Position numbers and translations under genes: made by a program | Part shown: in pieces, positions 5,637 to 39,370 of the stretch | How the letters are laid out: every line of letters starts with the position of its first letter | Numbering within the stretch: position 1 is the first letter of the stretch | The notes under the pieces: generated by a model | What the model saw: only the letters and a program-made list of their open reading frames with translations | Told to the model about the DNA's origin: nothing | Database searches by the model: none | Virus record (IMG/VR): IMGVR_UViG_3300026382_000035 | Coordinates: 1 to 39,370 of that record | DNA length: 39,370 bases | Reading direction: 5' to 3' (one strand) | Source: a virus

Positions 5637-5665
5637 AAAAATAAATACATAAGAAAGGAAAGTGA

Positions 5666-7739: not shown

Positions 7740-7762
7740 ACAAATAAAAAGGTTTTAATTCT

Positions 7763-13377: not shown

Positions 13378-13389
13378 AAAGGATAAAAA

Positions 13390-26019: not shown

Positions 26020-26045
26020 CCTTAAATGAAACTTAAGGCTTTTTA
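26020..26045 (+). terminator. Terminator after the 566-aa protein gene
   Basis: CCTTAA 26020-26025 pairs with TTAAGG 26033-26038 around a 7-nt loop, followed by CTTTTT. It begins the base after the stop codon. Confidence 0.6.
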
Positions 26046-26146
26046 CTGTTTTTACAGAAATCCTTAAGCAAACTTTAAGAAAAGTGTTGTTTTTCGTATA
26101 TAGAGATAAGGGTAAACCCCCCACTTTTCTTAAATGAAACTTAAAT
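26021..26146. repeat. Direct and inverted repeat cluster in a 150-bp gap
   Basis: CTTAAATGAAACTTAA occurs at 26021-26036 and again from ~26129. A perfect 13-bp inverted repeat joins 26074-26086 with 26122-26134. CTGT-TTTT-ACAG and GGG-TAAA-CCC add smaller hairpins. The 13-bp arms enclose a stretch with TTTTTCGTATATAGAG. It looks like a control region for the gene starting at 26170. Confidence 0.5.
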
Positions 26147-26169
26147 TGTTAAAAAATTGGAGTATATTT

Positions 26170-27321
26170 ATGAATTTATTAAAAGAAGCAAAAACAAGAT
26201 TGTGGAAAGAAGTGGATAGGCTGCTAAATTCAGGAACAGAAGAAGATAGAGCAAAAGCAATGTCTATTCTAAGTCAAGTATCAGTTCATACTAATAGAAG
26301 AAATTCTTTTTATGGAATGCCAACTAAAAATAGAAAGAAACTGTCTTTAAGAGAAATTAACAGTATTGTTAGTGAGAATGGTTCTAGTGAAAACTATAAG
26401 AAAGCATACAGAAAGAATTTAAAGTCAAAAGAAGATGAGTATTTTAAAGGTGGGAAAAACAGTGTTTTTGCTACTGATGAAAGAACCTTTTTGAAATATA
26501 AAAACAGACTTCCTTTGAAGACATACGACTCTATAAAAGATGAAGTATTGTTTTCCCCAAAAGATGCAGAAGATAAAATAATGTTTTTCTCAAAAGACAC
26601 TTTTAATAACCATAAGTTCAATGCTTTTAATTATTTAAAAAGCAAAAATTTATATTTTAAAAATAAAGAAGATGAAGTTAAAGCATTAGATAAATTATTC
26701 TTAGATCCAGAAGAGATGCAAAAAGAACTTCAATTGGAAAAGACTTTTGAAAAAGGACGCATTCCTTCATCTCCAGACAAAATAAATTTAATACACAAAT
26801 ATAAAAATAAAAACCCAAACAATCCTGTATTCCCTGCTTCTACAGTAGGGGTTAGTAATTTAAAATATCAGTACAAAAGAAATAAATATTTTGTTCCTAA
26901 AAATGGTAAGGTGGTTTATGGTAGAAATGGATATGCTACAGCAATAGAGCCAGGATTGTATGCTACAGACCAGATGCCATTACTGTATCAAAGATATGCA
27001 GAAAAAGGCAAATTAACAGATGATGATATAAACAATATATTATCATCAGAACATATGATGACTCATTATAGAGGTTTTAAAATGGATGATGGTGATATCC
27101 CAGCAATTATGAGGCTTAAAGGAACAAATTATTCTAAAAAATATAAGGATACTATTAAACCTGATGTAATAGACTCTGAAGATGAAGTAATTGTCCCTTT
27201 AAAGGATTATAAAAATTATAATGTAGAACCTTTTCACAAAGGTAGAATTTTAGAAGATAAAATTCATTCAAAGATAATATCTGAATTTAACACAAATACA
27301 AAAAGGAATAGAAATGGCTAA
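26170..27321 (+). CDS. Hypothetical protein, possible ADP-ribosyltransferase-like
   Basis: A 383-aa basic protein. ATG 26170 is chosen because TTGGAG lies ~9 nt upstream; the longer frame starts inside the repeat cluster. The first residues MNLLKEAKTRL loosely resemble the shared tag. Residues ~255-370 contain VVYGRNGYATAIEPGLYATD, then LLYQRYAEKG, MTHYRGFKMDD and SEDEVIVPLKDY. These recall the G-x-Y-x-T strand, YRG and ExE motifs of ADP-ribosyltransferases, some of which are injected by phages, but no clear STS motif is visible and spacing is short. I treat this as a weak hypothesis. Confidence 0.45.
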   Translation: MNLLKEAKTRLWKEVDRLLNSGTEEDRAKAMSILSQVSVHTNRRNSFYGMPTKNRKKLSLREINSIVSENGSSENYKKAYRKNLKSKEDEYFKGGKNSVFATDERTFLKYKNRLPLKTYDSIKDEVLFSPKDAEDKIMFFSKDTFNNHKFNAFNYLKSKNLYFKNKEDEVKALDKLFLDPEEMQKELQLEKTFEKGRIPSSPDKINLIHKYKNKNPNNPVFPASTVGVSNLKYQYKRNKYFVPKNGKVVYGRNGYATAIEPGLYATDQMPLLYQRYAEKGKLTDDDINNILSSEHMMTHYRGFKMDDGDIPAIMRLKGTNYSKKYKDTIKPDVIDSEDEVIVPLKDYKNYNVEPFHKGRILEDKIHSKIISEFNTNTKRNRNG

Positions 27322-28408
27322 AAACAAAAAAAACAATAATTATACAGGCTTGGGAATAGGTGTTGCTGGTGGTGGTTTATACGGACTTGGTTCATATTTT
27401 AAAAAAGATGTTGGTAGACAACTAAAAGAGAGTACAAAAACACTGCAAGATATAGAAAAAGGAATAGCACAGGAAGAAAAAGATATTAATATGGGTAAAA
27501 AGTATATAAAAGAAATAAAAGACAAATACGGAAATAGTGAGACTTTTGATACATTAAGTTTTCAATACAAAAATAAATTAAATAATAATATTATAACACT
27601 ACCTGGGTTAATTAGGGAAAATAGAGACAATATTAAAAAGTTAAAGAAAGAAATAACCCTAAAAGAAAAGAATAGTATCAGTATATTAAGAAGAGAATTA
27701 GAAACTCAAGAAAGAGAAAGAAAAATGTTAATGGATGAAATAGAAAAAATAGATAAAACCATAAAGAATATGGATAAATTAAAAAATAATGTAAAACAAA
27801 CTATGAAAAGCGTAAGTGAAGAAAAAAAGAGAATGGAAAATAGAATGATGACAGAAGCTGAATTTAATAGCTTTAAAAAGAATATAGACAAAAAAATTAA
27901 AGATAATGAAAATCTCCATAAAATAATAAAAAAAGATAGGGAGTTAATTAAGCAAAGAGATGAAACAATTAGAAAGATTAAAAAGATAGACAAAAGAATA
28001 GAATCATTAGAAAGACAAATTAGTAAAATAGGGCACAATAGTGTAAAAGAAACAGAAATAATTAATCTTAGAAGTAAGTATTCTAAATTAGAGAAAGAAA
28101 ATCTAGATTTAGTTGATAAATTAACAGATTCTAAAAGAGCACTAAGAGAGTTAGAAGAGTATTTAAAAAAAATTGAAAGCGAAGTTAATAATACTAGTGT
28201 GTTGGATGAAGAATTACTTGCTTCGGCTCAAAAGGGATTGGAATATGAAAAAAACAATACTTTACCAACTTGGCAAAAAATAGTTAAAAACAATAACATT
28301 AAAATGAAAGCTGCTGATTATATAGGTAAAGCAGGTATAGGTGTAGGTATAGCAGGCGCTTCTAAGTTTATTTATGACAAGTATCAAAACAGAAAAAAAT
28401 CCTTATAA
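27314..28408 (+). CDS. Coiled-coil protein with membrane segments at both ends
   Basis: A 364-aa protein overlapping the previous gene by 8 nt. A glycine-rich membrane segment lies at ~11-28 (YTGLGIGVAGGGLYGLGSYF), then ~280 residues of extremely charged Lys/Glu/Ile coiled coil, then a C-terminal anchor (IGKAGIGVGIAGASKFIY) and a basic tail. It has no tag. A long rod tethered at both ends could span the periplasm or fold back as a hairpin. It closes the glycine-zipper series. Function unknown. Confidence 0.55.
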   Translation: MAKNKKNNNYTGLGIGVAGGGLYGLGSYFKKDVGRQLKESTKTLQDIEKGIAQEEKDINMGKKYIKEIKDKYGNSETFDTLSFQYKNKLNNNIITLPGLIRENRDNIKKLKKEITLKEKNSISILRRELETQERERKMLMDEIEKIDKTIKNMDKLKNNVKQTMKSVSEEKKRMENRMMTEAEFNSFKKNIDKKIKDNENLHKIIKKDRELIKQRDETIRKIKKIDKRIESLERQISKIGHNSVKETEIINLRSKYSKLEKENLDLVDKLTDSKRALRELEEYLKKIESEVNNTSVLDEELLASAQKGLEYEKNNTLPTWQKIVKNNNIKMKAADYIGKAGIGVGIAGASKFIYDKYQNRKKSL

Positions 28409-28422
28409 ATAATGGGTTTTTT
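28394..28422 (+). terminator. Terminator ending the virion block
   Basis: AAAAAATCC 28394-28402 pairs with GGGTTTTTT 28414-28422 (one G-U); the stop codon is within the loop. The A-rich arm could make it work in both directions. Confidence 0.6.
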
Positions 28423-28454
28423 CTTGAAATTGTGTTATTTTTGTGATATTATTT

Positions 28455-28460
28455 TACAAT
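28455..28460 (+). promoter_or_regulatory. Promoter -10 for the DUF3310/Rep operon
   Basis: TACAAT preceded by TTATTTTTGTGATATTATTT, 22 nt before the ATG at 28482. It follows the terminator at 28394-28422. Confidence 0.45.
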
Positions 28461-28481
28461 AAATAAAACAAGGAGAAAAAA

Positions 28482-29495
28482 ATGTTTAAAAGAATGCTTA
28501 GTTTTGACCCAAGGACAAGGATCCATATGAAACAAGAACTTACAAGAGAGGCAGCGATACTTGATTTTTTAAATCATATAGATGAAATAATTGAGAGTAT
28601 AAGACAAGAAGAAAAAGAGTTTACAAAAAAAACACTTGAGACAGAGCAAGAAGAAAAAAAAGAATTTTGGAATGTTAGTGAAGCTATGACGATGTTTGAA
28701 GTGATAGAGAGAAGTAATGATAGAAAAATATCTTCTGTGTTGTTTCCTAAAGAAAATGGTCTTTTTGTAAAAGTTTCAAGAGCTGATAATGGAGTTGTTA
28801 TTGTTAAAGATAACTACAGACCTAACAAAAAAGAGATGAATGCAGCAAGAAAAGTAAACCAAGAAGAAAACAAACCGAAAATAGAGAAAAACGAACCAAA
28901 AGAAGAGAATGCACCTAAAGAATTAAGAAACTTACTTGATAAAATGATTGCACATAAGCTACCAGAACCAGATGAGCCTGTTTTTAAAGGACCGCTTAAA
29001 GGTAAGTTTAGAAGACATGATATGCATAGTAGATTATCTAAAATTAGAAAATGTAAAAGTGGAGAGTGCAAACACAATGGTGAAGTAAAATATAAACAAC
29101 CAGAACCTGCAAAAACAAATTCTTATACTTGTGAATTTTGTGGAGCAGAGAAAGAACTTTTAGATGGTATTTGTGTTTTACCAAACAATGGAGCATTAAA
29201 AACAAAAACAGTATTATGTGACAAATGTTTTAATAAGTTATTTGGAGAACTTAAGCCTGCTATTGAGAGAAGATTAAAAATGGGTGTATCAGATAAAGCG
29301 CCAGAACACTATAAAGCACTTATTCAACCAGTAGAAGCAATTAAAATGTGGGGATTAGATTTCACAATAGGTAATATTGTTAAATATGCTGCAAGAGTCG
29401 GTAAGAAAAAAGGTGTAGATCCAATAGATGATTTAAACAAAATTATTCATTATGCAGAAATTGCTAAAAAAGAAATCTTAAACAAAAGGGATTAA
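28482..29495 (+). CDS. DUF3310 (T7 gp1.7-like) protein with zinc ribbon
   Basis: A 337-aa protein with AAGGAG upstream. Residues ~268-335 (APEHYKALIQPVEAIKMWG, FTIGNIVKYAARVGKK) match DUF3310, the family of T7 gp1.7, a nucleotide kinase linked to dTMP/dGMP metabolism. Before it lies a zinc ribbon (CEFC ... VLCDKC, ~218-252) and an additional CKSGEC pair. The N-terminal ~140 residues are helical and charged and unrecognised. A fused zinc-binding region is unusual for this family. It lies directly upstream of a Rep-like gene, so a role in DNA replication or nucleotide supply is likely. Confidence 0.7.
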   Translation: MFKRMLSFDPRTRIHMKQELTREAAILDFLNHIDEIIESIRQEEKEFTKKTLETEQEEKKEFWNVSEAMTMFEVIERSNDRKISSVLFPKENGLFVKVSRADNGVVIVKDNYRPNKKEMNAARKVNQEENKPKIEKNEPKEENAPKELRNLLDKMIAHKLPEPDEPVFKGPLKGKFRRHDMHSRLSKIRKCKSGECKHNGEVKYKQPEPAKTNSYTCEFCGAEKELLDGICVLPNNGALKTKTVLCDKCFNKLFGELKPAIERRLKMGVSDKAPEHYKALIQPVEAIKMWGLDFTIGNIVKYAARVGKKKGVDPIDDLNKIIHYAEIAKKEILNKRD

Positions 29496-29497
29496 AA

Positions 29498-30394
29498 ATG
29501 AATGCTCCAGGTACAATTACAACAAAAGGTGATGAAGTATATGCGGTTCTTCCGCGTATAGTTGCTAAAGGTGCTCCACAAAAAAGAATAACAGAAACAA
29601 TCTATAAATTGGTTATGTATGTGTTTAGTTTAGTTGATATTAGAACTGATGATTTATCTGGTAAAAGAATAAAAATAAATGTTCAAGATCTAAATAAACA
29701 TATGGGGAGAAAGACGCTTTTTAGTGCTGATGTTTTGCAGAGAGCTAAAAAAAAAGATGTAATTTTTAGTGATAAAAAAACAAATGTAAAAATATTTTCT
29801 GAAATTGGAGATTTTGAAGGTAATTATTTTGTTGTTTTACATGACTCACTAATAGATTATATTCAAGAAAACAAAGATAAAGAGAATATGTTCTTTAAAG
29901 TAGATATAAAACCTGTATTACAAATGAATACAAAGAAAAATTATTACACATTAATGATGTATGTTTATCTATCTATATACCTTGAAGAGAAAGATGAAAA
30001 ACTAATTAAAAACTGTTTGTGTGAAGCAGGTGTAATTAAAGCTGCTTTGGGTGTAGAAAATTATAATATTTACTTATTAAAGAAAAATGTATTGTCTAGA
30101 ATTACAGAAATATTCAATAAAGAACCTTACTCTAAAATATTTGTTACTTATGAAATAAATGGGCATAAAGTAGAATTGTTTGTTGCTAAAAAGAAATACT
30201 TCTCTGATTATGATGATTTTTTTAATGAAACATTTAATAGAGCATACGGAGAAGGATTTAAAGAAAAAATTGCTTATATGTCAGAACAAGATAAGACTAA
30301 TGAAGATAAAAAATACAATGGTTTTGTGTTTGGGTTATTCACAGGTATATTTGTTGGTGGGATTGTTGGAGGTATTATTTCTGCTCTTTTATAA
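29498..30394 (+). CDS. Rep_3-like replication initiator with membrane tail
   Basis: A 298-aa protein, 2 nt after the previous stop, with AAAAGGG upstream. The order of secondary structure and segments such as KLVMYVFSLVDI, IKINVQDLNKHMG and NYNIYLLKKNVLSRITEIFN followed by a beta hairpin resembles the two winged-helix domains of Rep_3-type initiators found on plasmids and some phages. The match is moderate. The C-terminus is a glycine-zipper membrane segment (FVFGLFTGIFVGGIVGGIIS, then ALL), which I do not expect in Rep_3 proteins; it would tether the protein to the membrane. Confidence 0.5.
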   Translation: MNAPGTITTKGDEVYAVLPRIVAKGAPQKRITETIYKLVMYVFSLVDIRTDDLSGKRIKINVQDLNKHMGRKTLFSADVLQRAKKKDVIFSDKKTNVKIFSEIGDFEGNYFVVLHDSLIDYIQENKDKENMFFKVDIKPVLQMNTKKNYYTLMMYVYLSIYLEEKDEKLIKNCLCEAGVIKAALGVENYNIYLLKKNVLSRITEIFNKEPYSKIFVTYEINGHKVELFVAKKKYFSDYDDFFNETFNRAYGEGFKEKIAYMSEQDKTNEDKKYNGFVFGLFTGIFVGGIVGGIISALL

Positions 30395-30461
30395 ACCAAC
30401 AACTTCTTCTCCTTCTTTTTTCCTTACAAATAACATCATTTTGAATATTTGTTTTTTTTAA

Positions 30462-30467
30462 TATAAT
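30462..30467 (+). promoter_or_regulatory. Promoter -10 for the prepilin gene
   Basis: TATAAT preceded by GTTTTTTTTAA, 26 nt before the ATG at 30493, with AAAAAAAAGGA between. Confidence 0.6.
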
Positions 30468-30492
30468 TGTGTTAAAAAAAAGGAATAAAAAC

Positions 30493-30921
30493 ATGGAAAA
30501 ACGATCATTTACCTTAATAGAATTAATCTTTGTTATTGTGATTATTGGTTTATTGGCAGCAGTAGCAGTTCCTAAGTTCTTAACAACTAAAAAGAATGCA
30601 GAAACGGCTAATTTACCAAGTGTGGGACATCAAGTTGTAACTAAAGCAACAGAACAATACACTATAGTACAAGAAGAGAATTTGTCTAAAATTATAGATG
30701 AAGATAAAGACTTAAAAAGATATTATAATGAAATTAAAGATAATCCATTGTTTGATACTGATAAAAATTACGAAGAATTTAATATATCATGGCATTCAAC
30801 AGGAGAAGTGTGTTTGAAAGTGTATAGAGATACTACTGTATATAAAATTAATAAAAATGATGAAGGTATTACATACGACTTCATTGTTAAAGAATTAAAT
30901 ACATCTTGTAATGCAGATTAA
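30493..30921 (+). CDS. Type IV prepilin-like protein
   Basis: A 142-aa protein with AAAAGGA 5 nt before its ATG. The N-terminus MEKRS/FTLIELIFVIVIIGLLAA is a class III signal of type IV pilins: short basic leader, cleavage before Phe, Glu at +5 and a ~20-residue hydrophobic helix followed by AVPKF. The residue before the cleavage site is Ser rather than Gly. Two Cys (VCLKV, TSCNA) near the C-terminus could close a pilin-type D-loop. The helix resembles Campylobacterota pilins (commonly FTMIELIFVIVIIGILAA). It is monocistronic with its own promoter and terminator and no pilus machinery nearby, so it presumably enters the host's pilus or secretion system. Confidence 0.85.
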   Translation: MEKRSFTLIELIFVIVIIGLLAAVAVPKFLTTKKNAETANLPSVGHQVVTKATEQYTIVQEENLSKIIDEDKDLKRYYNEIKDNPLFDTDKNYEEFNISWHSTGEVCLKVYRDTTVYKINKNDEGITYDFIVKELNTSCNAD

Positions 30922-30988
30922 TTAAATTTTAAGTTAAAATTAAGAATTAGTTAGATATAATTCTATTGCTATGTATAATTATAGTCTT

Positions 30989-31019
30989 ACAAGTGGTTCA
31001 CCCCCTTTCCACTTGTTTT
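30989..31019 (+). terminator. Terminator after the prepilin gene
   Basis: ACAAGTGG 30989-30996 pairs perfectly with CCACTTGT 31009-31016, followed by TTT. Two TATAAT boxes (30956-30961 and 30974-30979) lie just upstream, so a very short RNA from here is also possible. Confidence 0.5.
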
Positions 31020-31059
31020 ACCTACACTCAAAAAATATCCCCCTTATGTAAAATAAAAT

Positions 31060-31089
31060 AAAAAAACTCTCTATATATAATGTTTTTTT
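31060..31089 (+). terminator. A-tract/T-tract hairpin fused to the next promoter
   Basis: AAAAAAAC 31060-31067 pairs with GTTTTTTT 31082-31089. The T-run immediately precedes GG and the -10 box at 31092, so one sequence could serve both as terminator tail and promoter T-stretch. Confidence 0.4.
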
Positions 31090-31091
31090 GG

Positions 31092-31140
31092 TATAATTAT
31101 AACAGTTATATGCTACAAAAATAAATGTAATAGCGTATAA
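31092..31140 (+). promoter_or_regulatory. Promoter and leader hairpin of the accessory operon
   Basis: TATAAT at 31092-31097 follows T7-GG. The predicted leader holds TTATATGCTA (31106-31115) pairing with TAGCGTATAA (31131-31140, one G-U), just before AAGGAGAG and the ATG at 31158. It likely drives the dense cluster of small genes to ~33.9 kb. Confidence 0.6.
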
Positions 31141-31157
31141 AAAACAAGGAGAGAATA

Positions 31158-31547
31158 ATGAGTAATTTTACTGAGCCATTAGTTGTAGAATATTTAGACA
31201 ACAACAAGTGGAAAGTTTGTAGAGAATTCAGTTACTACACATCAATACCGTATGATAATGTGATTGTTAATGAAACAAAAAACCCATATTGGATAACGAT
31301 AAAAAAAGGGTTTACTACAGATTTCGCATCTATTCCAAGAGTATTCTGGAATGTTATGAGTCCTTACGACAAACATGCAAAAGCAGCTGTAATTCACGAT
31401 TTTTTATACAAGACCAGAGAATTGCCTAGAGAAATATGCGATAAGATATTCTTGGAAGGTATGGAAGTATTAGGTGTTTCTTGGTGGAGAAGAAATTTGA
31501 TGTATGGTGCAGTTAGAATGTTTGGGAGAAGATATTATGGAAACTAG
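31158..31547 (+). CDS. DUF1353 family phage protein
   Basis: A 129-aa protein with a strong AAGGAGAG site. The core KGFTTDFASIPRVFW, then HAKAAVIHDFLYK, then a C-terminal SWWRRNLMYGAVRMFG are the conserved blocks of DUF1353, a small family found widely in tailed phages and prophages. The conserved Asp and His suggest metal or substrate binding, but the molecular role is not established to my knowledge. Full family length. The next gene starts inside its 3' end. Confidence 0.85.
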   Translation: MSNFTEPLVVEYLDNNKWKVCREFSYYTSIPYDNVIVNETKNPYWITIKKGFTTDFASIPRVFWNVMSPYDKHAKAAVIHDFLYKTRELPREICDKIFLEGMEVLGVSWWRRNLMYGAVRMFGRRYYGN

Positions 31548-31977
31548 AAGTAGAATAAATAGAATATTACCAACAAGTGAAATATTAAAACATAGTGAGT
31601 GTGTTAGTATGGATGCTTTTTTTGATGATTTGATTGAAGAGTTGTTTAGAGAGAATGTTGAAGTTTTGGATGATGTAAAACTAAGCACAGCGTTAATTAA
31701 AGATATATATGAAGAATCTGATATGAGGTTTGCAATAGAGATGATATCTGAATTGTTTCCACATGATGGTTTTTTAGTTAAAATAGAAATCCCAGTGCCT
31801 ACGAAGATAAAATACAATGCAGATATAGAAGAATATGAATGGGATGAATCGTTTTGTGTGCATAGTATTGTGTTTATGTATGTTGGCAGTTTAGATGATA
31901 TAGAAGGCAAAATTAGCGAAGTAGAAGAAAAAAAGATTAAAGCTTTTATCGAAAAAAGAATAAAAGACTCAGAGTAA
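31537..31977 (+). CDS. Hypothetical acidic accessory protein
   Basis: A 146-aa acidic protein. ATG 31537 is chosen because GGGAGAAG lies ~7 nt upstream, giving an 11-nt overlap with the DUF1353 gene. Helical start (TRSRINRILPTSEI), acidic middle, and a beta stretch (LVKIEIPVPTKIKYN) near the centre. No membrane segments and no recognised family. Stop overlaps the next ATG (TAATG). Confidence 0.5.
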   Translation: METRSRINRILPTSEILKHSECVSMDAFFDDLIEELFRENVEVLDDVKLSTALIKDIYEESDMRFAIEMISELFPHDGFLVKIEIPVPTKIKYNADIEEYEWDESFCVHSIVFMYVGSLDDIEGKISEVEEKKIKAFIEKRIKDSE

Positions 31978-32186
31978 TGATAACAGTAGAAATATTCGAT
32001 TTAAAAATAAAAAATGTGGACTATGAAATGGTGAGAAAAAGTTTTGCAGGGATTGTGTATGGTAACAGTTCTCTGCCAGGCGATGTTTGGAGTGATGACA
32101 AAACAGAATACAATGGAACCTGTTCCGATAAAGAACTTAACGACTTTTTAGAAGAAATAGGTTGTGGAAGAGTGTTTGAGGAGTAA
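31977..32186 (+). CDS. Small hypothetical protein
   Basis: A 69-aa acidic protein coupled by TAATG overlap to the gene before. Beta-rich start (MITVEIFDLKIKNVDYEM) and an acidic helical end with two Cys (GTCSDKE, IGCGRVF). No family recognised. Part of the accessory operon. Confidence 0.5.
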   Translation: MITVEIFDLKIKNVDYEMVRKSFAGIVYGNSSLPGDVWSDDKTEYNGTCSDKELNDFLEEIGCGRVFEE

Positions 32187-32189
32187 ATA

Positions 32190-32396
32190 ATGCCGTATAG
32201 TTATAAAATAAACACATGTAAAAGAGTATCCATAATGTGTGGTAAATACGGAAAAGCATGTGTTGAAAATAAAACACAGCAGAGGGCCTTTGAGGCCCTT
32301 GAAAGAATATTATGCCAAATGGCAAGAGATAGTTGTAAAAAGTACAGAAGAAAAAGAAAAGAATACAGAAACAGAAGAATGTTTAAAAGGAAATAA
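32190..32396 (+). CDS. Small very basic protein
   Basis: A 68-aa protein 3 nt after the previous stop with GAGGAG upstream. It has four Cys and ends in an extremely basic helix (KKYRRKRKEYRNRRMFKRK). Nucleic-acid binding is plausible from charge alone. Its gene contains a GC hairpin, GGGCCT-TTG-AGGCCC (32284-32298), unusually strong for this AT-rich genome. No family recognised. Confidence 0.45.
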   Translation: MPYSYKINTCKRVSIMCGKYGKACVENKTQQRAFEALERILCQMARDSCKKYRRKRKEYRNRRMFKRK

Positions 32397-32397
32397 A

Positions 32398-32952
32398 ATG
32401 AAAAAACACAAATCAAATAAAGGAAACAAAATGGAAAAAAAACATAAATCGAATGTTGAAGAAAAGTCAGGATTAATGTCTCAAGAGGAGATTGAAGCGT
32501 TATTAGAAGTTGTGGAAGAAGATGATTTACAACCTTTAAGTAATAATGGTGATAAATATAAACATAAACATGAAGATAAAATACATTGTCATATTCCAGA
32601 TAAAAAACCAATTTTTTTTGTGAATAATGTAAAACTAAAAAATACTACTGCCAATAGAATGGCGGAGATAGTTGATAGTTTTAATCCAAATACAATTAAA
32701 AAGGTAAAATTGATTTTAACTGGTTCTACTAATCATATGTGTGGAATAGGGTTGTTTTTATTAGTGGGAGATAGAGGTTATTGTGTTTCAAATATTTCAA
32801 TTAGATCATATATAGTTATAAAATCTACCTTATTTGAGAAAAATATTAAAGTAACAGAAACAATGTCTTGTTTAAAAATAGGTGATAATATGGAGATATA
32901 TGAAAGCAAAATAACTTTCAAAAACAAATTAGTAGAAAAGAGTACAGAATGA
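32398..32952 (+). CDS. Protein with a FliM-like CheY-binding motif
   Basis: A 184-aa protein. ATG 32398 follows AAAAGGAAATAAA; a second ATG at 32431 has a near-copy of the same ribosome site, so two forms may be made. Residues 27-43 read MSQEEIEALLEVVEEDD, very close to the N-terminal peptide of Campylobacterota FliM (LSQEEIDALLEVVDE as I recall), which binds phospho-CheY at the flagellar switch. A His/Lys-rich linker (~60-75) follows, then a ~110-residue globular domain that is not FliM-like. Role inferred: interference with chemotaxis or motor control. The motif is short, so a chance match is possible. Confidence 0.55.
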   Translation: MKKHKSNKGNKMEKKHKSNVEEKSGLMSQEEIEALLEVVEEDDLQPLSNNGDKYKHKHEDKIHCHIPDKKPIFFVNNVKLKNTTANRMAEIVDSFNPNTIKKVKLILTGSTNHMCGIGLFLLVGDRGYCVSNISIRSYIVIKSTLFEKNIKVTETMSCLKIGDNMEIYESKITFKNKLVEKSTE

Positions 32953-33386
32953 GTAAGTTAGCATTTGATTATGATAATTTTAAGTTCGTAAAAACAGAAG
33001 ATAAAAAAGATGAAGAAGTAAAAACACCTGTTTTAGCTTCTTTCCCTATGGCTTTAGGTAGAAGTATAGATGTAATATCTGAAGACGGAGAACTCTATAT
33101 GAAAGGCATACAGAAAATTAAAATGTCCAATATGAGAATTACTTCTATCAGATGGAATTGTTTGTTTGGTGATAAAATTAAGCAACAAATGAGTGAATAT
33201 GATAAATTATCTGATGGGCAATTATATGATGTTGTAACAATACCTGACATAAACAATGAAATAGGTTTTACATATGTGTTTGGAAATAGTGAAAGTGCAA
33301 AAATATTCATTAACTCTATGATGGATTTCGCTTCGTCTTTAGTGATAATGGGAAAAGTAAAAGAACAGGAAAGTGTTCATGAGTGA
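32949..33386 (+). CDS. Hypothetical accessory protein
   Basis: A 145-aa acidic protein overlapping the previous gene by 4 nt (ATGA). Contains a conserved-looking beta region (VLASFPMALGRSIDVISED) and ends with a helix (INSMMDFASSLVIMGKV). No membrane segment strong enough to call. Function unknown. Confidence 0.5.
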   Translation: MSKLAFDYDNFKFVKTEDKKDEEVKTPVLASFPMALGRSIDVISEDGELYMKGIQKIKMSNMRITSIRWNCLFGDKIKQQMSEYDKLSDGQLYDVVTIPDINNEIGFTYVFGNSESAKIFINSMMDFASSLVIMGKVKEQESVHE

Positions 33387-33570
33387 ATTTGAAAAACTAT
33401 TTGGGAAACAGGGTAAAGATTGGGAAACAAAATCAGACTTAATAGCAAAAATCAGAGATGACTTTTTTGAACAGTTAGAACAATTTGTTCCCGGTAGTAG
33501 TTTGGTTAGTTCCGAAGAATGTACTTTATATGCTGTATATAAAACATTGAAAGAATGTAAAAATGGATGA
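33379..33570 (+). CDS. Small hypothetical protein
   Basis: A 63-aa protein starting at ATG 33379 within the previous gene, with CAGGAAAG ~6 nt upstream. Begins MSEFEKLFGKQGKDWE and is predominantly helical and acidic. Stop overlaps the following start. No family recognised. Confidence 0.45.
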   Translation: MSEFEKLFGKQGKDWETKSDLIAKIRDDFFEQLEQFVPGSSLVSSEECTLYAVYKTLKECKNG

Positions 33571-33784
33571 TTTAAAAAAACAAAGATATTTGCAAAACTT
33601 TCAAAATAGAATAGACGAATTGGAAGAACAGAAAGGTGTTTGTAAGGACAAAGAAAGATTGAATAGGATAGAACAAGAGCTGTATGCATATAAACAAGAA
33701 ATAAGAATGCTTACAGAAACAAAAGAAGAACCTAAAAATAATAAAAAAAGGAAAAGAAGATGTTTAAAGAAGAAGATTATATAA
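33563..33784 (+). CDS. Small coiled-coil protein with basic tail
   Basis: A 73-aa charged protein overlapping its neighbours at both ends. Heptad-like start (YLQNFQNRIDELEEQKG) and a strongly basic end (NNKKRKRRCLKKK). May be a small DNA- or RNA-associated protein; no direct evidence. Confidence 0.45.
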   Translation: MDDLKKQRYLQNFQNRIDELEEQKGVCKDKERLNRIEQELYAYKQEIRMLTETKEEPKNNKKRKRRCLKKKII

Positions 33785-33948
33785 CAAAGAAAACAAATAA
33801 AATATTTGGTTTTATAGCAGGAGCTATTGTTACTGTTGTAGCTGCACAGGTTGCTTTTAATTTCCATCAAGATATAATCGGTTTTGCTTGCCTTATTGCC
33901 ACTGCTGGATTTGCTGGTGGTCTTTGGATGGAATTAAGTTTTGAGTAG
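33760..33948 (+). CDS. Small two-helix membrane protein
   Basis: A 62-aa protein starting within the previous gene, preceded by AAAAAGGAAAAG. Two hydrophobic helices (~15-31 FGFIAGAIVTVVAAQVA and ~38-55 DIIGFACLIATAGFAGGL) with a short turn predict a membrane hairpin. Small phage membrane proteins at this position often block superinfection or affect the envelope, but nothing here is specific. Confidence 0.5.
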   Translation: MFKEEDYITKKTNKIFGFIAGAIVTVVAAQVAFNFHQDIIGFACLIATAGFAGGLWMELSFE

Positions 33949-33987
33949 AATTGAGTAAAGTTGATTGAATGTATTTATTTTTTTTGA

Positions 33988-33993
33988 TACAAT
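33988..33993 (+). promoter_or_regulatory. Promoter -10 for the repeat mini-protein
   Basis: TACAAT preceded by a T8 run and GA, 22 nt before the ATG at 34015, with AAAAAAAAGGATA between. Confidence 0.55.
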
Positions 33994-34014
33994 AAACAAA
34001 AAAAAGGATAAACA

Positions 34015-34230
34015 ATGATTTCAAAAGGTTATGTTGAGTATAAAGGTGATATAGGACCAATTAAGGCTGGGTGGCCAGATTTAGGGACTTGTGGTGATGC
34101 AGGTTCAATTAAAGCTGGGTGGCCCGATATGGGAACTTGCAGTAAGATAGGTGATGGTGGAGATGCTTTAATGGCTAACACTGAATGGCCTCCTGCTTTA
34201 ATGGCTAATACTGATTGGCCACCACTATAA
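34015..34230 (+). CDS. Tandem-repeat mini-protein (WPD/WPP repeats)
   Basis: A 71-aa protein with its own promoter and strong AAAAGGATA site. After MISKGYVEYKGD it consists of two pairs of repeats: IKAGWPDLGTC and IKAGWPDMGTC, then ALMANTEWPP and ALMANTDWPP. It contains two Cys, four Trp-Pro units, and few charged residues in the repeats. Short internal duplication is clear at DNA level. I know no family with this pattern. It could be a secreted or modified peptide, a structural adhesive, or a decoy that binds one partner several times. The next gene starts 14 nt after its stop codon. Confidence 0.55.
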   Translation: MISKGYVEYKGDIGPIKAGWPDLGTCGDAGSIKAGWPDMGTCSKIGDGGDALMANTEWPPALMANTDWPPL

Positions 34231-34244
34231 GAGGAGTGATAAAA

Positions 34245-34799
34245 ATGAATAATAGAGAAAAAGAAAGAGATAGATTATCTCGAAATATTGAACTATTAAG
34301 CAATTCTATACCAGTAGGTCTTTCTATGGGTATAGGAGGATTAGCTTCTAAAAACAATAAGATGGTAGCAGCTGGTCTTGGTACTACAGTAGCAGGTGGG
34401 TTAATGACACACGCTTATTGTGAAAAAAATAAAAAGAAACTAAAAGAAATATATGGTAAAAACTTTAGTTGCTCTGGTTCTAAAGACCCTGTAACAAAAA
34501 AACACAGGGTAATTTCAGCATTAGGTGGCGCTGGATTGTCTGCTGCTGGATTTTTAGCTTCTAAAGATAATAAATTATTAAGAAATATCTCTTTAGCTGG
34601 TGGTGGTATATCTGCTATTAGATTAGGGGCTGCATTACTTGGTAATGATAGGAAACTTAACGAAAACGAAAAAGATATGGATAAAGAACTAAAAAAAATA
34701 TATAAAAAACAAGTGGAAACAGATAAAGCCTATAGAGAAAAATATAAAACATTGGAAGCATTAGACATGATAGGTGCGATTCCAACTAGTGCTTATTAA
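34245..34799 (+). CDS. Glycine-rich membrane protein outside the virion block
   Basis: A 184-aa protein; ATG 34245 is chosen because GAGGAG lies ~8 nt upstream. Glycine-rich hydrophobic segments occur at ~18-30 (PVGLSMGIGGLAS), ~38-52 (AAGLGTTVAGGLM), ~88-105 (ALGGAGLSAAGFLAS) and ~112-128 (ISLAGGGISAIRLGAALL). The ends are charged. The style is like the tagged family, but there is no tag and it lies in the accessory region with the repeat mini-protein. It could be that peptide's partner or a superinfection-exclusion protein; both are guesses. Confidence 0.5.
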   Translation: MNNREKERDRLSRNIELLSNSIPVGLSMGIGGLASKNNKMVAAGLGTTVAGGLMTHAYCEKNKKKLKEIYGKNFSCSGSKDPVTKKHRVISALGGAGLSAAGFLASKDNKLLRNISLAGGGISAIRLGAALLGNDRKLNENEKDMDKELKKIYKKQVETDKAYREKYKTLEALDMIGAIPTSAY

Positions 34800-34810
34800 T
34801 AAAAGGGATA

Positions 34811-34857
34811 ATGATAAATGAAATAATTGGGTGGTCCACCACTTAACTTAAAGTTAA
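34811..34857 (+). promoter_or_regulatory. Palindromes and possible leader peptide before 34868 gene
   Basis: An 11-codon ORF (MINEIIGWSTT, 34811-34846) with AAAAGGG upstream overlaps GGTGG-T-CCACC (34830-34840) and is followed by the perfect palindrome TTAACTT-A-AAGTTAA (34843-34857), which ends just before AAAGGATA of the next gene. Could be an attenuator-like leader. Confidence 0.3.
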
Positions 34858-34867
34858 AGGATATAAG

Positions 34868-35197
34868 ATGAAAACTAAAAAACTATACAAAGTATATAAT
34901 GTTGAAGATATTTCAGGAATTTGGAAACTTGCTGAAAAAGAACACGATAGTTCAAATTTAATTGGAGTTAGTCATTGCAGTAGTAAAGGTTTAGTAGATT
35001 ATACAATTTGGTTAGGAGATGTAAATGATTTTATTAAAGATAAGAAATATGTTAAATATCAATTTAATATAAATGATCGTCTTTCTGACAATATTGCATA
35101 TACATATAATGAATTAGAAGAAAAAGGCTTTAAAGTAAATACTATTATTGAAAACTCTCAAAATAAAGAATATCTTGATGTTTTTTATATTATTTAA
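34868..35197 (+). CDS. Hypothetical accessory protein
   Basis: A 109-aa protein with AAAGGATATAAG upstream. Mixed alpha/beta pattern with aromatic residues (KLYKVYNVEDISGIWKL, YTIWLGDVNDFI). No membrane segment or recognised motif. It precedes the G8-tract ORF by 9 nt. Confidence 0.45.
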   Translation: MKTKKLYKVYNVEDISGIWKLAEKEHDSSNLIGVSHCSSKGLVDYTIWLGDVNDFIKDKKYVKYQFNINDRLSDNIAYTYNELEEKGFKVNTIIENSQNKEYLDVFYII

Positions 35198-35206
35198 GGA
35201 AAGAAA

Positions 35207-35353
35207 ATGACAGCACAAGATTATGCAAACAACACTCCACATAAACAACAAGATAATAGTAAATTAGGAGTAGGAATGCAGATAGGGGGGGGCTGGCAAC
35301 AGCCGGAGGCAAACTTTATGATACTTTTAGAGATAAGGGAGAACAATGAATAA
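35207..35353 (+). CDS. Small ORF with a G8 tract, apparently frame-shifted
   Basis: AAGGA precedes ATG 35207. As written, the frame gives 48 aa and ends at 35353 in non-typical sequence after IGGGWQQPEANF. A run of eight G (35285-35292) lies at the switch. One more G or two fewer would instead read LATAGGKLYDTFRDKGEQ and stop at a TGA that overlaps the next ATG (ATGA), the coupling used by most genes here. The intended product is therefore likely a ~46-47 aa glycine-rich protein. The tract may be a phase-variation switch, as poly-G runs are in Campylobacter, or a sequencing error. Confidence 0.5.
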   Translation: MTAQDYANNTPHKQQDNSKLGVGMQIGGGWQQPEANFMILLEIRENNE

Positions 35354-35810
35354 AATAATCTGTTTCGATATAGATGACTGTATATTACCACACTACAATA
35401 TGTTACCTAAAGAGCATAGGTTGCAAATTTTTAAACTTAATCTTGAGCGACTCGTTCACTTGTGTCAACAAACAGAGGCTAAATTGTTTATGACTTCAAG
35501 TTGGGGGATGTTATTTAAAATAAATGACAATGGTTTGATTATTTTTAAAGATGAATTTGATTACGGAGATGAATTTGAGCAAGAAATTGTAGATGTTATG
35601 AATTCCTATTTACAACCTTATATAATAGGAGTAAGCTGTGGTGATAGGAGAGAAGATATTAAAATCCTATTATTACAAGAAGATATACTTGTTGTAGCCA
35701 TAGATGATATGGATTTGTCTGATATAAAAGACAAGAACTTTAAATATATCAATGTGGAAACTATGATTACTGATAGACAATTAAGAGAGATAAAACAATA
35801 TTTTTCTTAA
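35346..35810 (+). CDS. HAD-like phosphatase
   Basis: A 154-aa protein with AAGGGAG upstream. Motif I is FDIDDCIL (Asp8, Asp10), motif II FMTSSWG (Thr50 or Ser51), a basic RRED (101-104) and motif IV AIDDMD (Asp120/121): a compact HAD-fold hydrolase. The SSW and DD pattern is close to the HAD domain described in 'Swiss Army Knife' RNA-repair proteins and similar small phage proteins. Probable role: removal of phosphate from nucleotide or RNA ends. It is followed by a strong terminator. Confidence 0.72.
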   Translation: MNKIICFDIDDCILPHYNMLPKEHRLQIFKLNLERLVHLCQQTEAKLFMTSSWGMLFKINDNGLIIFKDEFDYGDEFEQEIVDVMNSYLQPYIIGVSCGDRREDIKILLLQEDILVVAIDDMDLSDIKDKNFKYINVETMITDRQLREIKQYFS

Positions 35811-35823
35811 TTCTACTTATTTT

Positions 35824-35864
35824 AAAAAAAACTTCTATTTATAATCTCTTTTTAAGTTTTTTTT
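35824..35864 (+). terminator. Terminator after the HAD gene
   Basis: AAAAAAAACTT 35824-35834 pairs perfectly with AAGTTTTTTTT 35854-35864 (11 bp, 19-nt loop). The right arm is also the T-run of the next promoter. Confidence 0.65.
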
Positions 35865-35866
35865 GT

Positions 35867-35872
35867 TATAAT
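35867..35872 (+). promoter_or_regulatory. Promoter -10 for the Rha/Tad2 operon
   Basis: TATAAT directly after T8-GT, 160 nt before the ATG at 36032. The long leader contains the crossing inverted repeats at 35895-35991. Confidence 0.65.
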
Positions 35873-35894
35873 TATTACTGATAAAAACATTTCG

Positions 35895-35991
35895 TTGTAG
35901 CATTTTGTTCTACAAAGAACATTTTGTGGAGGGTGGCACACTTGAGACCTACCCACCACCCTCTACAAAGTGTTTAATGTTGGTAGGTCTC
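35895..35991 (+). repeat. Structured leader with crossing inverted repeats
   Basis: TTGTAG 35895-35900 pairs with CTACAA 35910-35915. TTTGTGGAGGGTGG 35923-35936 pairs with 35956-35969 (14 bp, one G-U). GAGACCTACC 35944-35953, inside that loop, pairs perfectly with GGTAGGTCTC 35982-35991 beyond it, forming an H-type pseudoknot. AACATT 35918-35923 can pair with AATGTT 35976-35981. The G-U in place of a mismatch supports an RNA. Located ~40 nt before the Rha gene. Confidence 0.7.
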
Positions 35992-36031
35992 TTCCACACA
36001 TTCTGCACTTAATACATTTAAAGGAAACCTT

Positions 36032-36733
36032 ATGAAGCAAGAAGTTGTTAGTTTGAATGGGAAAAACATTAGGTTTGAAATAGCTACAGACAATGGTAAT
36101 GATGTTGTGTTTACAGACAGCATAACTATCGCTGATGTGTTTGGTAAAAAACATAAAGTAGTTATTAGAGCTATAGAAGATGATGTTGCTTGTAACGAAT
36201 TTTTAACTGAGCATAAAATTGTGCCCAGTGAATACACAGATAGATCAGGTAAAAAAAACAAAATGTATTTACTTGATAGAGATGCTTTCTCATATTATGT
36301 AATGGGATTTACAGGTGAAAAAGCAAAGAAGTGGAAGTTGGAATATATTAAAGCATTTAATAATATGGAAAAAACATTAAAACAAAAACAACAACAAAAA
36401 CTACCTTCAAATCCAATGGAAATATTAGAACTTGTTTTTCAAGTGCAAAAAGACCATGAGAAGAAGTTAGTGGAAGTGGAAACAAAAGTTAAAGTTCTTG
36501 AAGACACAAAAAGACTTGAAGGATGGCAAGAAAAAAAACTTATTGACTTAAAAAATCAAAAAGTATTTGCACTAGCAGGAGACAATAAAGAACTTGCTAC
36601 AAAATTACACAGAAGAGTTTGGAGTTTATTTAAAAAAAATTTTAGTTTACCTAGATATAATGAATTACCTGCGGTTAAATTCAATGAAGGTGTAATGTTT
36701 ATTAATAAAATAAAATTAGAAGATATGTTATAA
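36032..36733 (+). CDS. Rha/ORF6C-type phage regulator
   Basis: A 233-aa protein with AAAGGA upstream. Residues ~20-110 match the Rha regulator domain: FTDSITIADVFGKKHKVVIR, then SEYTDRSGKKNKMYLLDRD and YVMGFTGEKAKKWK with FNNMEK at its end. A Gln/Lys linker and coiled coil follow. The C-terminal ~65 residues (LKNQKVFALAGDN, KLHRRVWSLFKKNF, VKFNEGVMFI) fit the ORF6C domain. Such two-domain proteins act as antirepressors or regulators in many phages. It heads an operon and has a structured leader, so it may be tightly controlled. Confidence 0.85.
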   Translation: MKQEVVSLNGKNIRFEIATDNGNDVVFTDSITIADVFGKKHKVVIRAIEDDVACNEFLTEHKIVPSEYTDRSGKKNKMYLLDRDAFSYYVMGFTGEKAKKWKLEYIKAFNNMEKTLKQKQQQKLPSNPMEILELVFQVQKDHEKKLVEVETKVKVLEDTKRLEGWQEKKLIDLKNQKVFALAGDNKELATKLHRRVWSLFKKNFSLPRYNELPAVKFNEGVMFINKIKLEDML

Positions 36734-36744
36734 AAAGGATTAAT

Positions 36745-37269
36745 ATGGATGAATTAAAAGAATACAAATCTATTAAAGTAGTTAAAGCAAAACCAATGAA
36801 ATATCACGAAGCAGGTCATTGGGGATATGTTAGAGATTATGATGTGGGGAAAGACGAACAAGAAGGGTATTATGTTGAATATGAAGATGGTTACAAAAGT
36901 TGGAGTCCAAAAGAGGCTTTTGAGAAAGGTTATGTGGAGATAGAGAAAGAATCAAAAACATATGGAAATACTTGTGCTAATGCTGTAAAGAAAAATGTAA
37001 AAGATATTAAGATTTGGGGTAATGGTGATTTGTTTGAATTAATAAGCAAAGCATCTAGTGAAAGTGAAGGTTGGATGAAATCAACAAAAGCTATGGAAAT
37101 TCCAAGAATAGGAGTGGTTATTCAAGTTACTACTCAACAAGGTGATAATGTAGCTGAAGCTGTAACTTTTGTTCCTGGAGCTAAAATCGATAGAGAGTTG
37201 GAAACGGATGAGAATGGTAAAAAAATAGTTATATCAAGAAGAATTATAAAGGATTCAATGTGGAGTTAA
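36745..37269 (+). CDS. Conserved phage protein (DGY-SWSP type)
   Basis: A 174-aa protein with AAAAAGGA upstream. Residues ~5-65 hold KAKPMKYHEAGHWGYVRD and GYYVEYEDGYKSWSPKEAFE, a module seen widely in phage accessory proteins. The second half (LFELISKASSESEGWMKSTK, then RIGVVIQVTTQQGDN and FVPGAKI) is another conserved phage block. In my memory these modules often accompany a Tad2/DUF2829 domain, which here is the next gene. The molecular role is unknown. Its 3' end overlaps the next gene by 10 nt. Confidence 0.65.
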   Translation: MDELKEYKSIKVVKAKPMKYHEAGHWGYVRDYDVGKDEQEGYYVEYEDGYKSWSPKEAFEKGYVEIEKESKTYGNTCANAVKKNVKDIKIWGNGDLFELISKASSESEGWMKSTKAMEIPRIGVVIQVTTQQGDNVAEAVTFVPGAKIDRELETDENGKKIVISRRIIKDSMWS

Positions 37270-37820
37270 AACAATATTTAAGAGATGGAAGAATACACAC
37301 AGGGTTAGAAGTAACAAGATTGGATTTAGATAATCTGCTAAAGAAATATGACTTTATTGGTGTAGCAAAAGCAGACAAGCCTGCTATTGTGGAAGCGTTA
37401 TCAGGAGATGTTGTTGGTGTAATTATGGGGGATATAAATAATATAGACGAGATACATAATAATGAAGAACCTATTGCAGAAAATCCAGATTGTTGGTTTG
37501 TTAGCAACAGAGCGATGAAGCCATACAAATCATTAGATGGTGAGTTTAATATTGGTGAAGCAAAAGAATTATTGAAATTAGGTTACAGAGTGAGACATAA
37601 GCTCTGGAAAGATAGTTTTTTAATTTATGTGCCAGGAAGTAAATTTAAGGTAAACAGACCGCCTTTATTAGGTGTATTTGAAGAAGGTACGGAAGTGAAT
37701 TATGAAGCCCATATCGATGTTGTTGATATTTGTCCTATAACACAAAAAATCTTTGTTAAACCTTATGTGTTTACACAAGATGACATAATGCGTTATAAAT
37801 GGGTTATAGAGAAAGAATAA
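37260..37820 (+). CDS. tad2: Tad2 (DUF2829) anti-Thoeris protein with extra N-terminal domain
   Basis: A 186-aa protein starting at GTG 37260 with AAAGGA 6-8 nt upstream, inside the previous gene. Residues 95-186 match Tad2/DUF2829: FNIGEAKELLKLGYRVRHKL, LIYVPGSKFKV, NRPPLLGVFEEGTEVNY, HIDVVD, and a closing segment FTQDDIMRYKWVIE. Tad2 proteins bind and sequester the cyclic ADP-ribose-type signal of Thoeris defence. Typical Tad2 proteins are ~90 aa, so the first ~94 residues are an additional domain; it contains PDCWFVSNRAMKPYK and is unrecognised. The function is inferred from the domain. Confidence 0.8.
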   Translation: MELKQYLRDGRIHTGLEVTRLDLDNLLKKYDFIGVAKADKPAIVEALSGDVVGVIMGDINNIDEIHNNEEPIAENPDCWFVSNRAMKPYKSLDGEFNIGEAKELLKLGYRVRHKLWKDSFLIYVPGSKFKVNRPPLLGVFEEGTEVNYEAHIDVVDICPITQKIFVKPYVFTQDDIMRYKWVIEKE

Positions 37821-37833
37821 TTTCTTTCTTTAT
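37810..37833 (+). terminator. Terminator-like hairpin after the Tad2 gene
   Basis: AGAAAGAA 37810-37817 pairs perfectly with TTCTTTCT 37822-37829 around TAAT (which contains part of the stop), followed by TTAT. Probably attenuates rather than fully ends transcription, since no promoter is obvious before 37851. Confidence 0.45.
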
Positions 37834-37850
37834 AACTTAAAGGATTTAAA

Positions 37851-38051
37851 ATGTGCTGTGATAAAATAAAACAAATAGAAGTTGAAATAGGAATGTTGGA
37901 TAGAAGGATTGCTACTTTGGAATATCGTGAAACACAAGTAAAGAAAAATGAAAGAGAGATAGAAGAAATTAAAAATGAATTAAAAGAAACTATCGACGAA
38001 TTGTATAGATTGGGTAATGAGTTCGAAAAAATCTACAAAAAAGGAAAATGA
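37851..38051 (+). CDS. Small coiled-coil protein
   Basis: A 66-aa protein with AAAGGATTTAAA upstream. It begins MCCDKIKQIEVEIGML and is continuous Glu/Lys coiled coil, with adjacent Cys at positions 2-3. No family recognised. Confidence 0.45.
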   Translation: MCCDKIKQIEVEIGMLDRRIATLEYRETQVKKNEREIEEIKNELKETIDELYRLGNEFEKIYKKGK

Positions 38052-38107
38052 TGGAAGTTTTAGAAATTGGTGCAATAAATAATGCTTTTAATAAAAAAGG
38101 AGAAAAG

Positions 38108-38683
38108 ATGAATACAGTAAAACAATTAGAAGAATTAAGAAACAATATCTCTGAATGGGGTAGAAAAAATGGTATTACTATTAATGGTAAAGTAGAAGGA
38201 CAAATGTTAAAACTTAACAGTGAAGCAAGTGAAATATCTGAAGCTATATTAGAAGGTGATGGTTCTAAATTTATTGATGCAATTGGAGATACTTTTGTTG
38301 TAATGGTTATGGTAGCAGATATCCTAAAAAGAGAACTAAATAGTGATGAGTTAGATTTGAGAATGGTTGGGTATGATAAAACGCTTGAAGAACTACGCGA
38401 TGATATTGATTTTGTAATATTACTTAAAATTCAGGTTGAATTAGGAGAACTTAATGATTTAATTGCAAAAGGAAGATATGAAACTTCTTTTACTACATTA
38501 AATAAAATGTTAAGTGTTTTAAATGCTCTTGCAGAAGATAGTGATAATAAGTTAGTTGAATGTATTGAAGCGGCTTATAATGAAATTAAAGACAGAGTAG
38601 GTTTTTTAACTCCTGATGGGGTGTTTGTGAAAAGCACAGACCCAGAATATGAGAATGTAGTTAAGCAGTTTAAAGGCAAATAA
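38108..38683 (+). CDS. MazG-like nucleotide pyrophosphohydrolase
   Basis: A 191-aa protein. ATG 38108 is chosen because AAAAAAGGAG lies ~7 nt upstream; a longer frame starts at 38048. Residues ~25-75 (GQMLKLNSEASEISEAILEG, then FIDAIGDTFVVMVMVAD) show the MazG-like pattern ExxE ... ExxD. A duplicated-looking helical segment follows, and the C-terminus (AAYNEIKDRVGFLTPDGVFVKS) is the usual ending of phage MazG-like proteins. Such enzymes hydrolyse NTPs or dNTPs and may alter host nucleotide signalling. Confidence 0.75.
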   Translation: MNTVKQLEELRNNISEWGRKNGITINGKVEGQMLKLNSEASEISEAILEGDGSKFIDAIGDTFVVMVMVADILKRELNSDELDLRMVGYDKTLEELRDDIDFVILLKIQVELGELNDLIAKGRYETSFTTLNKMLSVLNALAEDSDNKLVECIEAAYNEIKDRVGFLTPDGVFVKSTDPEYENVVKQFKGK

Positions 38684-38684
38684 C

Positions 38685-38873
38685 ATGGAAGACATGAGAA
38701 TGAAAATAATTATGGTCTTTGTAATAGTATATGCAATGGGATATGTTACATCAATTGCTTCTAATTATGTAAAAGGAACAGTATTAAAATTATTAGTTCC
38801 TTTTCTGTCTGGAATAATAAGTGGTGCTATCATTGGATATTTTACTAGAATAATGGTTGCATCATGTATGTGA
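38685..38873 (+). CDS. Small two-helix membrane protein
   Basis: A 62-aa protein starting 1 nt after the MazG-like stop. Two membrane helices (~7-25 KIIMVFVIVYAMGYVTSIA and ~36-56 LLVPFLSGIISGAIIGYF) with a short loop. Overlaps the next gene by 10 nt. No family recognised. Confidence 0.5.
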   Translation: MEDMRMKIIMVFVIVYAMGYVTSIASNYVKGTVLKLLVPFLSGIISGAIIGYFTRIMVASCM

Positions 38874-39133
38874 TAAAAGATTTCAAAGGGACTAAATATA
38901 AAGCAAGAACTAAATTTGCTTGGTTGCCGAAACAGTTAGATGATGGCTATAAAGCTTTCTTCAGTTTTTATGTAGCCATTGAAAAACTTTGTTATCCATG
39001 TCAGGATTTGCCTTTCTGGGTTGAGATATACTCAATGACATTGCCAGACATACCAGTGGATATAAAATCTGTATTAGAAGTAGAGCTTGAAGAATGTATA
39101 GAAAAATTAAAAATAAAAGATAAGGAAAAATAA
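38864..39133 (+). CDS. Hypothetical accessory protein
   Basis: An 89-aa protein starting within the previous gene. Aromatic middle (RTKFAWLPKQLDDGYKAFF) with two Cys in ~60-65 (KLCYPCQD), then an acidic helical end. Stop overlaps the next ATG (TAATG). No family recognised. Confidence 0.45.
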   Translation: MYVIKDFKGTKYKARTKFAWLPKQLDDGYKAFFSFYVAIEKLCYPCQDLPFWVEIYSMTLPDIPVDIKSVLEVELEECIEKLKIKDKEK

Positions 39134-39370
39134 TGCTAAAAAATAAAATTGTTAAAAAAGGTATGGATGCTTTAAAAGTGGGAACTGTAGTTGTGTTTAG
39201 ATTACCTGCTATTACAAATGAAAATCATTTAGGGTATTGGCCCAAAGAAATTGTATCAGATAAAGATATAAAAGAAATAAAAAAATCTGTTGATAAGACA
39301 GAACCATTAATTGGTGTTATTAGAAGAAGAATTGAAACTGATGACGGAATGACATTTGATGTTGCGTTTT
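39133..39370 (+). CDS. Hypothetical protein, cut by the window end
   Basis: Begins MLKNKIVKKGMDALKVGTVV at the TAATG overlap with the previous gene and is open to the last base (79 codons seen). Mixed alpha/beta and basic. The 3' end and function cannot be judged from this window. Confidence 0.45.
   Translation, partial: MLKNKIVKKGMDALKVGTVVVFRLPAITNENHLGYWPKEIVSDKDIKEIKKSVDKTEPLIGVIRRRIETDDGMTFDVAF

Follow-up and report, generated by a model that had tools for sequence, protein, structure and literature searches.

What does a strongly folded RNA leader do in front of a phage antirepressor gene? The window (the whole 39,370-nt stretch of viral DNA analysed here) is the whole of IMG/VR record IMGVR_UViG_3300026382_000035. 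It carries a rha gene whose product combines Phage_pRha (PF09669) and ORF6C (PF10552) domains and has an anti-repressor as its best PHROGs match. A sequence-only reading had described, between a promoter at 35867 and this gene, a 14-bp stem with one G-U pair crossed by a 10-bp helix. Both helices are present in that interval, and the 14 bp (35923–35936/35956–35969) are the inner part of a 20-bp stem. Among antisense RNAs transcribed together with their own target, the classic case is C4, the "off switch" that silences the antirepressor of phage P1. Judged from its sequence, the element in the Rha operon leader probably controls antirepressor translation through a C4-type antisense/target pair. 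Its parts and neighbors are as follows.

35867–35872, plus strand: predicted −10 box TATAAT, preceded by T-rich sequence
35891–35919, plus strand: small 5′ hairpin with 9 of 10 pairs, overlapping the outer pairs of stem S1
35917–35936, plus strand: 5′ arm of S1
35937–35955, plus strand: apical loop of 19 nt, containing the antisense segment and the heptamer CACTTGA common to L241
35942–35977, plus strand: possible mini-ORF a (tentative), TTG start, 11 codons, G-rich stretch upstream
35944–35953, plus strand: antisense segment GAGACCTACC, the 5′ arm of crossing helix S2
35956–35975, plus strand: 3′ arm of S1
35976–36002, plus strand: weak hairpin in the predicted fold (−5.2 kcal/mol) that can display the unpaired target
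35977–36012, plus strand: possible mini-ORF b (tentative), ATG start, 11 codons, running across the target and ending before the Rha ribosome-binding site
35982–35991, plus strand: target GGTAGGTCTC, the 3′ arm of S2
36020–36025, plus strand: Shine-Dalgarno-like AAAGGA of rha
36032–36733, plus strand: rha gene
848–956, minus strand: sibling element in the leader of a replication-initiator-like gene, with S1 937–956/874–893 (20 bp), S2 911–924/848–861 (14 bp) and inner hairpins

The main stem S1 is gap-free and lies on the Rha leader's sense strand (35917–35936/35956–35975; 17 Watson–Crick and 3 G-U pairs). Its loop is joined to a downstream site by S2, a perfect helix of 10 bp (35944–35953/35982–35991). 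The S2 target begins 6 nt 3′ of the hairpin on the same strand, is positioned 40 nt upstream of the Rha ATG (36032), and ends 28 nt before the rha Shine-Dalgarno, which is predicted to be base-paired within a small local hairpin whether or not the crossing helix forms. From the position of TATAAT, transcription would start at about 35878–35881; the box at 35867–35872 is not among the promoters listed by a sigma-70 scan that needs a −35 hexamer.

The arrangement exceeds what chance provides. We scanned the whole window, on both strands, for two crossing gap-free helices. The rha leader element has the top score of the window (44), the minus-strand stretch 848–956 is second (42), and the next unrelated place on the plus strand scores 33; some other places in relatives score 33–38. 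In comparison, when the whole window was shuffled 100 times in 2-kb blocks with dinucleotides preserved, the maximum on either strand was 36 (mean 30.1, s.d. 1.9). The fold of the leader also stands below its shuffles on the sense strand (z −2.97), and more weakly on the antisense strand (z −1.70).

A second scan looked for a hairpin of at least 9 pairs and a loop of 10–60 nt, with at least 8 loop nucleotides pairing with the next 80 nt. It was applied to 203 leaders, nearly all of Rha genes, with boundaries counted from the protein match rather than from mapped starts. On the sense strand the window leader ranks first (71), followed by those of loci L241 (67), L196 (65), L185 and L064 (56 each), L193 (55) and L215 (54); the antisense strand gives a top score of 65 (L215), then 56. 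One shuffle per leader yielded scores of 53 or less, and none of 1000 shuffles of its own leader reached the observed score of the window, with the same outcome for L241 (0 of 1000). Every leader ranked below L241, the L196 C4 excepted, trails it by more than ten points, and these include 33 loci (L322–L354) from genomes of a Campylobacter's phylum.

The L241 leader is the one close comparator for the window element. Rha relatives were gathered from bacterial genomes (80 of 355 confirmed kept) and from viral contigs (80 of 534 kept). Among the 80 viral-contig relatives kept, L241 (IMGVR_UViG_3300020045_006091) is the closest besides the virus's own contig, with 37% identity over residues 12–233. 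Its leader has a stem in which 19 of 20 positions pair and one is mismatched; the loop measures 19 nt and forms a 12-bp helix, with a single G-U pair, with a site 7 nt downstream. The two elements are alike in architecture, size and place before the Rha gene, but the stem and antisense letters are replaced, and L241 has a terminator-like hairpin just upstream. Their letters differ almost throughout, with CACTTGA common at the 5′ side of the loop. An alignment of the two elements is no basis for counting compensatory changes: its register differs between them, and aligning letters this diverged by their structure would be circular.

Known RNA families account for some Rha leaders and for neither of these two. 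The covariance-model search that the sequence-only reading had proposed, run against Rfam, matched no family: at gathering score the whole window has no match, including to C4 (RF01695), c4-2 (RF02944), sRNA-Xcc1 (RF02221), riboswitches and ribozymes, and at E values up to 5 the stretch 35800–36060 gives chance-level matches only, with no C4. L241 likewise shows nothing above chance at E up to 5. A possible T-box resemblance of AGGGTGGCACA was dropped, as it has no Rfam match. The claim that the element is unlike any riboswitch or ribozyme thus holds as far as Rfam goes, yet its arrangement does resemble a known system, the C4 antisense RNA with its target, which is neither of the two. Rfam was also run on 32 loci, and leaders at seven of them matched, a proportion that is not a rate because the loci were chosen partly for high scores. 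The matches are C4 in L196, L192 and L215, c4-2 in L205, and sRNA-Xcc1 in L214, L183 and L197; the window element matches neither of the latter two models. L196 is a curated Rfam C4 (84.5 bits), and the scan positions in L196 and L215 coincide with curated C4 RNAs. In L196, L215, L214 and L197 a segment of the Rfam RNA is complementary to a stretch before the Rha start; such downstream complementarity was looked for in L205 and none was seen. A similar structured leader (GTAACGTGTAC...GGCACGTTAC) precedes the Rha genes of L170, L172 and L300, of which L170 and L172 have no Rfam match.

Two further elements of related design were found outside Rha leaders. The minus-strand element at 848–956, presumably the "first" pseudoknot implied by the earlier reading, precedes a gene similar to phage replication initiators. 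Folded alone, its 83-nt hairpin forms a 20-bp stem that encloses two hairpins, one with the antisense letters in its 16-nt loop and the other small; in this predicted fold the hairpin resembles the C4 three-way junction. In the whole-leader fold the crossing helix prevails over the two inner hairpins. A search with the alignment of the replication-initiator-like gene returned only G005, G007 and one distant locus, and no such element is visible in the leaders of the relatives in G005 and G007. The other element (L064:10030–10154) belongs to a related phage, G010, with a 58% identical capsid. Here, crossing helices of 21 and 17 bp stand directly before an antirepressor-like gene (10219–10962); because of an overlap where they adjoin, the two cannot form at full length together. 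The gene has weak antirepressor similarity (ORF6N, E = 0.0033, below the Pfam cut-off; phrog_1726, E = 0.017). The leader fold is far below its shuffles (z −5.76), and the target can occupy the loop of its own hairpin, as the window target can, weakly.

Most long window proteins tested have no Pfam or PHROGs match, and one large protein gave no relatives in a search. Positions 25807–39370 are identical to 1–13564 of IMGVR_UViG_3300026484_000382 (74.7 kb); by this identity the two are records of one virus, together about 100 kb. A capsid-like protein relates the window to Salmonella phage Arash and Vibrio phages D69, D181 and D148 (~180–187 kb), and its search returned 10 IMG/VR contigs besides the virus's own. 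Rha was found by protein in none of these 10 capsid-related contigs, by family model in one of nine (the virus's own contig only), and by family model in none of 36 more distant contigs. Because it was not found in the 10 close and 36 distant relatives, many of whose records are fragments, the Rha locus looks accessory in this lineage. A sequence search of viral contigs with the element arms, and likewise a first Rha search, returned only the virus's own overlapping contig. In G002, a similarity of 29 nt was taken as chance; it falls where a coding region ends.

Several other features were noted along the way. In the window, an eight-G run (35284–35293) is located in a small open frame just upstream of 35346 and could be phase-variable. 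Downstream of rha, 37260–37820 has a weak match, just under the cut-off, to a Tad2-like anti-Thoeris domain (PF11195), and 30494–30921 encodes what is presumably a type IV prepilin-like N-terminus (FTLIELIFVIVIIG) in a phage. Elsewhere, G005 (L041:3660–3830) contains a possible free-standing small RNA, with a TATAAT promoter, crossing helices, a terminator-like end and no obvious gene. G006 (L048:19500–19700) has an intergenic repeated unit of about GTACGTCTAGGCGTAGTAATG behind a promoter-preceded structured stretch.

The architecture, place, strand and loop–target complementarity of the rha leader element can be read from its letters, as can the recurrence in L241, and together they suggest how the C4-type control would work. 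Transcription from the T-rich promoter would let the hairpin form, with or without its release by a nuclease. The loop segment would then pair with the target, either in cis as a pseudoknot or, possibly after processing, in trans with a second mRNA molecule. This pairing would close a ribosome-loading region, possibly on a mini-ORF coupled to rha, and hold antirepressor levels down; phages or transcripts whose loop sequence differs would escape silencing. Since the target ends well before the Shine-Dalgarno, the block would fall on upstream ribosome entry or on a coupled mini-ORF, and the effect on rha would be indirect. Cofolding of hairpin and target in trans showed no gain (−40.4 vs −40.4 kcal/mol) with a nested-only model, which cannot pair a hairpin loop.

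In both the window and L241, a candidate mini-ORF a opens with TTG inside the loop, and its stop overlaps the ATG of a candidate mini-ORF b by 1 nt at the target (TAATG/TGATG). Shuffles produce such a pair about 3% of the time per leader (60 of 2000 for the window and 63 of 2000 for L241), and one is also present in 9 of 158 other Rha leaders. As part of the control, the paired mini-ORFs are suggestive only. Where the window has these mini-ORFs, P1 (icd) and Gifsy-1 (orf45; PMC4825925) also use a small ORF.

The same mini-ORFs could instead act as a leader-peptide attenuator, in which translation of mini-ORF a would open the hairpin and carry over into mini-ORF b and from there into rha, with the helices doing no more than setting the switch. 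The overlapping TTG/ATG pair in the window and L241, at the shuffle frequencies above, speaks for this, and IsrK-orf45-anrP in Salmonella uses such coupling (PMC4825925). We nevertheless consider it distinctly improbable: the pair occurs in other Rha leaders as well, the ribosome sites are weak and the peptides are not conserved. A purely cis pseudoknot, bound by Rha or another phage protein that shuts off its own translation, would have a precedent in the T4 gene 32 leader, where gp32 shuts off its own translation. The T4 pseudoknot lies 67 nt upstream of the start (PMC3014915). Both share an H-type topology upstream of the ribosome-binding site of a phage gene, and the pseudoknot loops of the window element (7, 2 and 6 nt) would permit the fold if outer A-U pairs open. 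However, the T4 structure is bound by the ssDNA-binding product of its gene, whereas the window gene encodes a Rha regulator with ORF6C, which is not such a protein. Letters bound by a protein should also be kept, and the window and L241 share little beyond CACTTGA. This explanation is therefore unlikely.

The remaining alternatives leave more unexplained. The strong fold near the predicted 5′ end might simply protect the mRNA or serve as a processing site, with no antisense role; the exact complementarity between loop and downstream site, present in different letters in the window, L241 and G010, makes this very unlikely. We give equally little weight to an element acting as DNA (an operator, origin or cruciform), for which the intergenic inverted repeats and the repetition of CATTTTGT and TCTACAAAG could be cited. 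Its interleaved arms would be mutually exclusive as cruciforms, and all 12 G-U pairs in four elements are on the strand reading into the gene, whereas the opposite strand would have mismatches at these positions, an argument weakened, being partly built in, because three of the four elements were picked on their better-scoring strand. A ligand-sensing riboswitch would fit a compact pseudoknot located in a leader, but it is extremely improbable given the lack of an Rfam match and of a conserved core between the window and L241. Of the three roles that the sequence-only reading had offered, control of Rha translation is best supported (by location, strand, the L241 element and the match to C4 logic); ligand sensing and protection from RNase J have gained no evidence of their own.

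Comparison with known systems places the C4-type reading in context. In Salmonella prophage Gifsy-1, IsrK (RF01394) is a leader RNA that pairs with antirepressor mRNA and acts via a small coupled ORF in the IsrK-orf45-anrP leader (PMC4825925). IsrK activates and ends at a terminator, whereas a terminator scan found none in the window leader. The literature searched on phage antirepressor pseudoknots and Rha antisense leaders yielded no report of the window element; c4 and sar are treated in PMC12197685, and further literature is PMC2864571 and PMC8546580.

C4 itself offers the closest parallel. In the P1 authors' annotation, c4 RNA (48343–48419) is followed by a2 (48423–48429), b2 (48452–48459), icd (48470) and then ant, with icd noted as apparently required for ant. 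As a positive control, our scan of the P1 leader (minimum loop pairing lowered from 8 to 7; the match has 14) gave a match of score 70 whose stem coincides with c4 and whose target falls on b2. The experimentally studied C4 and its target therefore look, to the scan, like the window element (70 vs 71). Like C4 of P1/P7 (RF01695, a2/b2 targets), the window element is located upstream of an antirepressor operon on the same strand and transcript, with a long stem, an antisense segment in the loop (10 of 10 pairs) and a target a few to tens of nucleotides downstream. There are also differences. The C4 three-way junction, a long stem closing two hairpins, is replaced by a single hairpin with a 19-nt loop, and the a and b targets by one 10-nt target. 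No second copy of the target (a1/b1-like) was found upstream in the window, where the best complementarity is 8 nt with one G-C pair. The target ends 28 nt before the Shine-Dalgarno, and the C4 covariance model does not match. As a possible counterpart of icd, the short coupled ORF between the C4 target and the antirepressor, a candidate 11-codon ORF runs across the target (13 codons in L241). We read the element as probably working like C4 while not being a member of RF01695, given the missing model match, the single hairpin and the absence of an upstream second target.

That this logic recurs, with a simpler fold and without sequence in common, upstream of rha in two distant phages suggests that the control of antirepressors by antisense RNA arose or was rebuilt more than once. 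It also provides a search signature, a hairpin loop complementary to a near-downstream site, which finds RNAs that covariance models may miss because their letters turn over. More speculatively, large and mostly uncharacterised phages may have a new class of C4-like antisense leaders built on a single hairpin. In this class the architecture would be kept while the loop changes in step with its target, so that every phage has an immunity specificity of its own, and one genome would use such leaders on both its antirepressor and its replication-initiator (848–956, minus strand) switches. As far as its sequence tells, the rha leader element looks like a new version of the antisense antirepressor switch of P1.
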